From assembly GCF_024138125.1 (NCBI RefSeq), contig NZ_CP099993.1:2790001-2854000 (forward strand): a stretch of DNA of 64,000 nt, given 5' to 3'. Positions 26,952 through 32,102 of this stretch are shown here, in pieces (the stretch's first letter is position 1; each line of letters begins with the position of its first letter). This DNA is from Halorussus salilacus. Lineage in GTDB: Archaea; Halobacteriota; Halobacteria; Halobacteriales; Haladaptataceae. The notes below the pieces were generated by a model, which worked only from the letters and a program-made list of their open reading frames with translations, did not search any database and was not told where the DNA came from. The position numbers were made by a program, and so were the translations under genes.

Positions 26952-27812
26952 TCAGCCGTTTTCGGGCACTGCGTTGGTGAGTCCGACGGCCCGGTCTGCC
27001 CCGGCGGTGACGACGCACTCCCACGTCGCGTCGGCGACCGGGCGGGCGTCCGTGACCGCGACGGTCCGGTCGGGCACGCGCCGCAGGAGGTCGACGGCCA
27101 GCGGCAGCGTCGGGAGACGGTCTTCCCCCCGGTCGAACGCGTACCTGTCGAGCGCGACCCGCCACGACCGTCCGGTCGCGGGGCCGTCTCGCGCGTCGAC
27201 CCGGTAGTCCTCGACCAGCGCGAGGCGGTCGAACCGGGCGAGCGTGGCTTCGAGCGGGTCGCCGTCGGTCGAGGCCTCTCCGAGGCGGTCGGCGGCCGAC
27301 CGGAGGACCCGGTGCTGTCGGTCGGGGGCAAGCCGCGCGTCGAGTTCGGCCCCAACGGTCGAGAGCAGGACGAGACAGAGTTCGTCCGGGTCGTCGACCG
27401 ACTCCGCGGAGTAGAGGTACGCGTCCATCGCGGCGCGCTCGACCTCGGTCTCGCCGAGCGCCGAGAGCGCCTCGAACACAACCGCCGCGACGTCGTGGCA
27501 GAAGTCGGTGACGGCCGTCTCCTCCGGGGGCTCGGTCGCCGGGGCGTCGAACTGCCCGCCGCAGGCTCCGGCGAACTCCTCGGAGACCACCAGCGCGTAG
27601 CGGGGGAGTCGGGAGTCGTAGCGCCGGAGTTCCGCCCGGTATGCGGCCGCGAGTCCCGCGGCCTCGGCCGCGGTCTCGCGGTCCGGGAACCGCTTTCCGG
27701 CGACCGGGACCGGCCGCTCGCCGGTCCGAGCGCAGCTGACGTAGTAGCGTCCGGTGTCGTCGCTGAGGGCCGCGATGCGTTCGCGCACGTCGGAGAGGGT
27801 TCCGCCGACCAT
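26952..27812 (-). CDS. Haloarchaeal protein of unknown function under a metal-regulator-like operator
   Basis: 286 residues, cytosolic, no membrane segment. The N-terminal third (LSDDTGRYYVSCARTGERPVPVAGKRFPDRETA...AAYRAELRRYD) looks like a compact alpha/beta domain; the middle is helical with CHDVAAVVFEAL; the C-terminal part ends in beta strands. I do not recognise a catalytic motif. What stands out is the promoter: a perfect 20-bp palindrome containing TTAGGCTAGCCTAA covers the start codon and the probable transcription start, so expression is probably controlled by a DtxR/IdeR-type iron or manganese repressor. Product function unknown. Confidence 0.75.
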   Translation of the reverse strand: MVGGTLSDVRERIAALSDDTGRYYVSCARTGERPVPVAGKRFPDRETAAEAAGLAAAYRAELRRYDSRLPRYALVVSEEFAGACGGQFDAPATEPPEETAVTDFCHDVAAVVFEALSALGETEVERAAMDAYLYSAESVDDPDELCLVLLSTVGAELDARLAPDRQHRVLRSAADRLGEASTDGDPLEATLARFDRLALVEDYRVDARDGPATGRSWRVALDRYAFDRGEDRLPTLPLAVDLLRRVPDRTVAVTDARPVADATWECVVTAGADRAVGLTNAVPENG

Positions 27813-27845
27813 TTTAGGCTAGCCTAAAATCTCGGTGGATATATA
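27811..27845 (-). promoter_or_regulatory. DtxR/IdeR-like operator and TATA box of the 26952-27812 gene
   Basis: attttaggctagcctaaaat (27811-27830) is a perfect palindrome that starts inside the ATG codon. On the minus strand a TATA box (tatatat, about 27838-27845) lies about 30 bases before the ATG. The core TTAGG-CTAG-CCTAA resembles the known IdeR/DtxR boxes, and its place over the start site is that of a repressor. Confidence 0.7.
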
Positions 27846-27933: not shown

Positions 27934-28413
27934 ATGGCTTCCGAGGGGGAGATAGCGGTCGTTCACTTCACGGGGCGCATCGCGGAGGGCGAAGACGCCG
28001 GGGAACCGTTCGACACGTCCGACGTGGACGTGGCGCTCGACGAGGGAATCTACCACGACAACCGCGACTACAGGCCGCTGGAGTTTCGGGTCGGCGGCGG
28101 CGAGGTCGTCGACGGTCTCGACGAGGCAGTCCGGGGGATGACGGTCGGCGAGGAGCGGACCGTCCGGGTCGACCCGGACGCGGCGTTCGGCGAGCACGAC
28201 GACGGGAAGGTGGTCGAGATATCCCGCGACGAACTGGAGGAACGCAGCGATGTGACCGCCGAACAGGGCGAACTCGTCGGGTCCGAGACCGGCGAAACGG
28301 GGTGGATAACCGAGGTCGGCGACGACACCGTCACGGTCGATTTCAACCACGAACTCGCAGGCGTCTCGGTCGAGTTCGACGTGAAACTGCTGGACGCCTA
28401 CGAGGACGAGTGA
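27934..28413 (+). CDS. FKBP-type peptidyl-prolyl cis-trans isomerase, SlyD-like
   Basis: 159 residues. Folding catalyst for proline bonds. The beginning EIAVVHFTGRIAEGEDAGEPFDTS, then PLEFRVGGGEVVDGLDEAVRGM and VGEERTVRVDPDAAFGEHDD match an FKBP domain with an inserted IF flap (about 90-130), as in archaeal and SlyD FKBPs. The closing FNHELAGVSVEFDVKLLD is also typical. There is no signal peptide, so it acts in the cytosol, and no His-rich metal tail is present. Confidence 0.94.
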   Translation: MASEGEIAVVHFTGRIAEGEDAGEPFDTSDVDVALDEGIYHDNRDYRPLEFRVGGGEVVDGLDEAVRGMTVGEERTVRVDPDAAFGEHDDGKVVEISRDELEERSDVTAEQGELVGSETGETGWITEVGDDTVTVDFNHELAGVSVEFDVKLLDAYEDE

Positions 28414-31426: not shown

Positions 31427-31538
31427 GTCGTCGCTCGCACCCGTCGGCGACGCGGTGTCGAGTGCGGTCGTCGCTCGCGCCAGTCGCCGACGCGATTTCG
31501 GGTGCGGTCGTCGCTCGCACCGCGAGCGACGACCGCAC
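31427..31538. repeat. 40-bp tandem repeat ending in a perfect hairpin
   Basis: Two 40-bp units (31427-31466 and 31467-31506, both beginning gtcgtcgctcgc) and a partial third. The last unit continues into 31502-31538, a hairpin with perfect 17-bp arms and a 3-base loop. Divergent intergenic space between the EthD-like and HEWD genes. Confidence 0.85.
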
Positions 31539-31603: not shown

Positions 31604-31774
31604 ATGACCGAACTGGAACCGCCGACGAGGCGCGAGTGTCAGCGATGCGGTCGCCGAGAGGCGTGGGACGACGACGCGACGAACTGGACGATACGCGACG
31701 ACGCGCAGACTGGCGAGCCGTTCTGTATCCACGAGTGGGACATCACCGGGACGTACCGTCCGATTCGGGGGTGA
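31604..31774 (+). CDS. HEWD family zinc-knuckle microprotein
   Basis: 56 residues. Two Cys pairs are readable: CQRCGRREAW near the start and a single C in PFCIHEWDITGTYRP near the end, with His/Glu/Trp/Asp giving the HEWD signature. A small metal-binding protein of haloarchaea whose role is unknown. Its stop codon lies in the first unit of a 15-bp tandem repeat. Confidence 0.85.
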   Translation: MTELEPPTRRECQRCGRREAWDDDATNWTIRDDAQTGEPFCIHEWDITGTYRPIRG

Positions 31775-31805
31775 CCGATTCGGGGGTGACCGATTCGGGG
31801 GTGAC
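31761..31805 (+). repeat. Three exact 15-bp tandem repeats
   Basis: cgattcgggggtgac three times without change, overlapping the end of the HEWD gene. Confidence 0.95.
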
Positions 31806-32102
31806 CGCCCCGGAGGGTGAGGGTCGGCCCGGCGGTCCCAGCCCACGTCCCCCTCCGTCCCGCTCTCCCGCCCCCAGCGAGCGGCCGGACCAATCCCGGC
31901 AGTTTTTATTACCGGGGGGCGTAAACCCGTCATAGACCGATAGTTCGCGGGTTCGTGGCTCGGCCACCGCGGGCCCCACCGACGGCCGAAAGACGCCGCG
32001 GCGGGGGTTCGACGCCGCGAGCAGGTTTGAATGCGTACGGACGCCGCGCGACGTGGCTCTCACCGAACCACGGCGCGGCTTTGCGTACAACAGGATGAAA
32101 CT
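31775..32102 (+). other. Long leader region before RNase J
   Basis: 328 bases without a gene. It contains the rest of the 15-bp repeats, a Pro-codon-like C-rich stretch, a TATA-like tttttatta (31903-31911) about 190 bases before the RNase J ATG, and a strong hairpin (32043-32079). If transcription starts near 31930, the mRNA has an untranslated leader of about 170 bases. Confidence 0.5.
32043..32079 (+). promoter_or_regulatory. Stem-loop in the RNase J leader
   Basis: An outer 7-bp stem (gccgcgc/gcgcggc) and an inner 5-bp stem (cgtgg/ccacg) separated by a 2-base bulge, around an 11-base loop, ending 23 bases before the start codon. Might be a processing or autoregulation target. Confidence 0.5.

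Follow-up and report, generated by a model that had tools for sequence, protein, structure and literature searches.

A predicted DtxR-family operator at the start of a DUF7552-DUF7551 gene in Halorussus salilacus

A perfect 20-bp palindrome, ATTTTAGGCTAGCCTAAAAT, overlaps the start of a gene for a 286-residue protein in Halorussus salilacus. In all likelihood it is the operator of a DtxR-family repressor activated by metal, most likely by iron, which would control this gene together with iron-uptake genes. The protein, a fusion of domains DUF7552 and DUF7551, very probably belongs, as a conserved component, to the iron regulon of haloarchaea. We infer the binding itself, the identity of the metal, the direction of regulation and the DtxR protein responsible from comparisons of genome sequences. 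As we picture it, a single metal-loaded dimer would occupy the transcription start, immediately downstream of the TATA box, as long as the iron supply is ample, and would keep a leaderless transcript from being initiated; once iron becomes scarce the repressor would leave, and DUF7552-DUF7551 would be made along with the iron-uptake proteins. The candidate repressor is a 142-residue DtxR-family protein encoded beside sufBCD (C1:760904).

The palindrome and the gene at its side

The features of interest within the window, a stretch of 64 kb, are listed in Table 1. The initial annotation described a TTAGG...CCTAA palindrome at the start of a leaderless transcript and likened it to the boxes bound by IdeR and DtxR. 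The palindrome is exact, with its arms 4 bases apart; a search for the TTAGG/CCTAA pattern with a 10-base gap was accordingly unproductive. The last two minus-strand bases of the palindrome are the AT of the ATG at 27812-27810. Given the distance between TATA box and ATG (Table 1), transcription is predicted to start in or next to the box, and the transcript would be leaderless. Thus, the location ascribed to the box at the gene start was confirmed: it overlaps the ATG and covers the predicted transcription start downstream of the TATA box. This is an operator-type position, over or next to the promoter, and relatives share the layout.

Table 1. Features at and around the palindrome (window coordinates).
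Feature	Position	Strand	Basis and remarks
Perfect 20-bp palindrome ATTTTAGGCTAGCCTAAAAT, predicted DtxR-family operator	27811-27830	.	Sequence; same place kept in genus
14-bp core TTAGGCTAGCCTAA, exact one-dimer IdeR/DtxR consensus TTAGGNNNNCCTAA	27814-27827	.	Sequence, compared with PMC8464063
TATA box TATATAT	27839-27845	-	Sequence; ~30 bp upstream of ATG
Gene for 286-aa protein, DUF7552 + DUF7551	26952-27812	-	ORF and Pfam
DUF7552 domain, residues 5-79	27576-27800	-	Pfam PF24422, E 1e-31
DUF7551 domain, residues 102-279	26976-27509	-	Pfam PF24420, E 1.5e-59; predicted fold like H-NOX/V4R/TRAPP
Divergent FKBP-type prolyl isomerase gene, neighbour outside the regulated unit	27934-28413	+	Pfam FKBP_C

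Three perfect 20-bp palindromes are found in the window, the other two being GC-rich, so symmetry by itself is weak evidence. The rarity of the sequence is more telling. Allowing up to 3 mismatches, the window holds no second match to ATTTTAGGCTAGCCTAAAAT, and 100 shuffled versions yielded none. Searching the genome for the same box, a check proposed in the initial annotation, yielded 7 exact copies of TTTAGGNNNNCCTAAA in 3.6 Mb against 0.02 expected from base composition, while TTAGGNNNNCCTAA occurs 9 times and its reversed pattern once. Exact copies of TTTAGGNNNNCCTAAA are present in all of 18 genomes of the genus (3 to 16 per genome; reversed control, 0). The 102 exact boxes collected from relatives show a preferred centre, C/T-T-A-G/A, with which the window box agrees. 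The window also carries two tandem repeats: a perfect one with a 15-bp unit in 3.2 copies (CCGATTCGGGGGTGA, 31760-31807) and one with a 40-bp unit in 2.4 copies (31427-31521), the latter around the start of an EthD-domain gene.

In structural work on IdeR, binding of a half-site by one dimer was shown and the minimal IdeR/DtxR target was then redefined as the 14-bp TTAGGNNNNCCTAA, occupied by one dimer, rather than the 19-bp TTAGGTTAGSCTAACCTAA, occupied by two (PMC8464063). When the cores are aligned, the window site agrees with the 19-bp sequence at 14 of 19 positions, indicating that the full IdeR box is absent. The IdeR-type assignment therefore stands for the 14-bp single-dimer form with A/T flanks and falls for the two-dimer form. 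The likeness to the actinobacterial IdeR/DtxR operator consists in the identical 14-bp core, the overlap with a promoter and the presence of DtxR-family proteins in this genome. Unlike the actinobacterial operator, haloarchaeal sites are associated with an archaeal TATA promoter, around which they stand singly or in pairs spaced 34-37 bp (or 20-21 bp).

The product of the gene had been described as a protein with no known role, which proved correct: it is a DUF7552-DUF7551 fusion of a type widespread in haloarchaea. Both domains score far above the curated Pfam cut-offs (109 versus 27 bits for DUF7552, 202 versus 52.6 bits for DUF7551). NCBIfam holds no model for the 286-residue protein, a PDB sequence search with it gave chance matches only, and none of the papers searched names DUF7551. 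The divergent FKBP gene was dismissed as the target of the box, since the box lies about 100 bp from the FKBP start and, in other haloarchaeal families, stays with DUF7551 when the neighbour changes.

Conservation of the box and its siderophore-uptake partners

Scanning genome contigs with the single protein found no relatives; an alignment-based scan gave 156. DUF7551 is present in 113 of 194 sampled genomes. Boxes were counted in a sample of 80 named haloarchaeal DUF7551 loci taken from the profile search. An exact box lies within 300 bp upstream of the gene in 44 of them, where the surrounding DNA would lead one to expect about 1.2, within 400 bp in 47, and within 4 kb in 21 more. Throughout the genus the box occupies positions -16 to -1 relative to the start codon of the DUF7551 gene and the sequence upstream varies; one of 11 genus copies at this start bears two changes. 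The box is also found upstream of DUF7551/7552 genes in other families, at shifted positions, suggesting that function is conserved and not a frozen sequence. The only other DUF7552 gene of this genome, a stand-alone gene for 148 residues, has two exact boxes upstream, whose ends lie 2 and 22 bp ahead of the gene start.

Nine of the 80 loci have no box within 4 kb. Eight belong to Haloferax and one to Halogeometricum (L120, L122, L125, L130, L137, L142, L144, L149 and L152), all in a TrkA/TrkH context, and this branch of DUF7551 may have left the regulon. In Haladaptatus pallidirubidus the DUF7551 locus is present twice, 0.55 Mb apart (L095, L096). The two copies agree in their protein match and in their boxes, which hints at a large duplication in the recent past.

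Many of the 21 loci with a distant box have DUF7551 as a distal gene of an iron-siderophore ABC operon headed by the box. The partners ahead of DUF7551 are Peripla_BP_2 siderophore-binding proteins, a FecCD permease, an ABC ATPase and an FAD oxidoreductase; in several loci the first or second gene downstream of DUF7551 encodes a DtxR-family protein (Fe_dep_repress). For 70 exact boxes a start codon was called no more than 60 bp away; of these, 26 precede siderophore-binding-protein genes, usually by 2-5 bp, and 25 precede DUF7551 genes. The exact one-dimer consensus, the conservation of the box and its presence before siderophore-uptake genes all argue for the proposal that a DtxR/IdeR-like box controls the gene; conservation of the box and the siderophore operon partners likewise support the suggestion that the protein is a new member of the metal response.

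When boxes with at most one mismatch each were considered, 58 pairs were found at a spacing of 34-37 bp, 36 being the commonest, against one pair at all other spacings below 80 bp. A BRE/TATA element lies within the 18-21 bp between the paired boxes, which would place one dimer on the upstream side of the TFB site and the other on the start site. This framing is seen at siderophore and DUF7551 promoters (L123, L094 and L157 among others). The Halorussus DUF7551 gene has only the downstream box of the paired layout. Stand-alone DUF7552 genes have box pairs 20-21 bp apart instead of 34-37 bp.

Signal for FerR, a DtxR-family protein, has been reported on all fhu genes of Haloferax volcanii, several of which are induced by iron starvation (PMC11349517). 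Like the FerR signal, the window box occurs upstream of siderophore (fhu-type) ABC genes, and presumably the same box is involved. A related arrangement is found in Haloferax alexandrinus: three boxes with one mismatch each are common to a divergent pair of binding-protein genes that neighbours an HVO_A0556-type zinc-finger gene, and 36 bp separate two of these boxes. By position only, one of the two genes is probably the counterpart of HVO_A0557, whose expression rises 7-fold on iron starvation.

The match between boxes and siderophore genes in H. salilacus itself is incomplete: its two Peripla_BP_2 genes have no box, and several boxes stand before genes for which no role in iron is obvious (cupin, RGP-like, DUF7522). 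A box precedes a gene for an RGP-like (reversibly glycosylated polypeptide) protein and a one-change box the following SBP_bac_8 ABC transporter gene (L022:4423-5700; C1:283422, 284646), which together probably make up another iron-regulated unit. Further exact boxes lie near the DUF7522 gene (L025:6906) and the cupin gene (L024:5545), and another separates an lplA-like gene from an unannotated ORF (L023:5442).

Candidate repressors, metal and direction of control

Two clear DtxR-family proteins are encoded in the genome. The gene for the 142-residue protein adjoins a suf block that reads as sufCBD from inspection of the translations; some of the canonical metal ligands of this protein are absent in the alignment. 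The second protein, of 240 residues (C1:766276), is SirR/MntR-like, has a FeoA domain and is the better match to the DtxR family. Its metal ligands are MntR-like, with Asp replacing Met10 and Cys102 of IdeR, and its gene adjoins that of a GDT1 cation antiporter. At its own start this gene carries TTTAGACGAATCTAAA, containing the sole TTTAGANNNNTCTAAA of the genome (C1:766466-766481, just before the ATG; L029:11467). The 240-residue protein is thus likely to be autoregulated through a second, different box, suggesting that this is the sequence that it reads. Since the 240-residue protein has a palindrome of its own, the 142-residue protein is the likelier reader of the TTTAGG box. We take the Haloferax DtxR gene beside suf to be that for TroR, described as the main iron regulator.

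Alternatively, the 240-residue protein might read the TTTAGG box, placing the DUF7552-DUF7551 gene in manganese rather than iron homeostasis. This would fit the better family match and MntR-like ligands of that protein, the cation antiporter beside its gene and a near-box upstream of a ZIP gene. Nonetheless, it is siderophore ABC genes that the TTTAGG box accompanies across haloarchaea, whereas the MntR-like gene has a distinct palindrome that occurs nowhere else in the genome. On these two grounds iron is favoured over manganese, and a manganese role for the gene appears unlikely.

A different objection concerns the direction of control. DtxR-family proteins are capable of activation as well as repression, and Corynebacterium DtxR is called a dual regulator by the title of PMC1382209; the box could thus recruit an activator, and the gene be switched on by iron as a storage or detoxification gene. 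Against this stand the position of the box, which covers the predicted start downstream of the TATA box as repressor sites classically do, and the fact that the position is common to siderophore-uptake genes, which are starvation-induced in Haloferax. Activation by iron seems, if anything, slightly more improbable than a manganese role. The idea that the palindrome is a chance or structural element at a gene start (terminator, cruciform), which the further perfect 20-bp palindromes of the window might have encouraged, is ruled out by the retention of the sequence at the same place in the genus despite diverging flanks, its shifted places in other families and its strong genome-wide enrichment. 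Repression by an iron-loaded DtxR-family protein accordingly remains the preferred reading.

The DUF7551 domain and its possible role

Structure prediction gave models of high confidence (pLDDT 91 for the whole protein; pLDDT 95 and pTM 0.91 for DUF7551 alone). A Foldseek search with the DUF7551 model returned H-NOX heme domains as its first 17 matches (E 3e-3 to 6e-2), followed by TRAPP subunits, and VIA gave Z values of 6-7 to H-NOX, V4R phenol sensors and TRAPP. H-NOX, V4R and TRAPP form one structural superfamily. The predicted model would thus be weakly alike to the H-NOX/V4R/TRAPP (Bet3) ligand-binding fold; since Z stays below 8 (about 6.5 against H-NOX, with rmsd 4.4-4.8 over some 153 aligned residues), the link is tentative. 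At the sequence level, Pfam HNOB matched none of 62 DUF7551 members at E up to 1, V4R had no Pfam match, and hhalign of DUF7551 against two haloarchaeal V4R-type sets detected no profile similarity (probability ~0.2%, P 0.23-0.91). With the V4R profile tests negative, the fold link comes from predicted structure only.

DUF7551 differs from H-NOX in the heme-ligand region, where no histidine is conserved in residues 180-200 of the 62 sequences; the only conserved histidine is H106, in the first helix. Three cysteines, C27, C105 and C146, are invariant in these sequences instead. Over about 70 residues, the helical first half of DUF7551 shows homology to the N-terminal part of PAS-histidine kinases from haloarchaea (hhalign E 1e-9; weak Pfam matches). 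Kinases with such a DUF7551-like N-terminal helical region are found at L181-L185.

On these grounds, a sensing or ligand-binding role of DUF7551 is plausible. An auxiliary or sensing role in siderophore or iron use is our leading guess, and a tentative one. It seems conceivable, at longer odds, that DUF7551 is an iron-starvation-induced sensor or carrier whose H-NOX/V4R-like pocket, lacking the heme histidine and equipped with invariant cysteines, binds an iron-siderophore or another iron-related ligand, its helical half partly serving kinases too. If true, archaea would have a cytoplasmic iron-response protein of a new type.

The haloarchaeal boxes extend support for the 14-bp one-dimer target proposed for DtxR to a second domain of life and show a regular layout in which paired operators frame an archaeal TATA promoter. 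They further suggest that boxes differing by one base pair per half, TTTAGG and TTTAGA, are read by two different DtxR proteins in the same cell. A widespread haloarchaeal family of unknown function thereby gains a testable place, in the iron-starvation response beside siderophore uptake.
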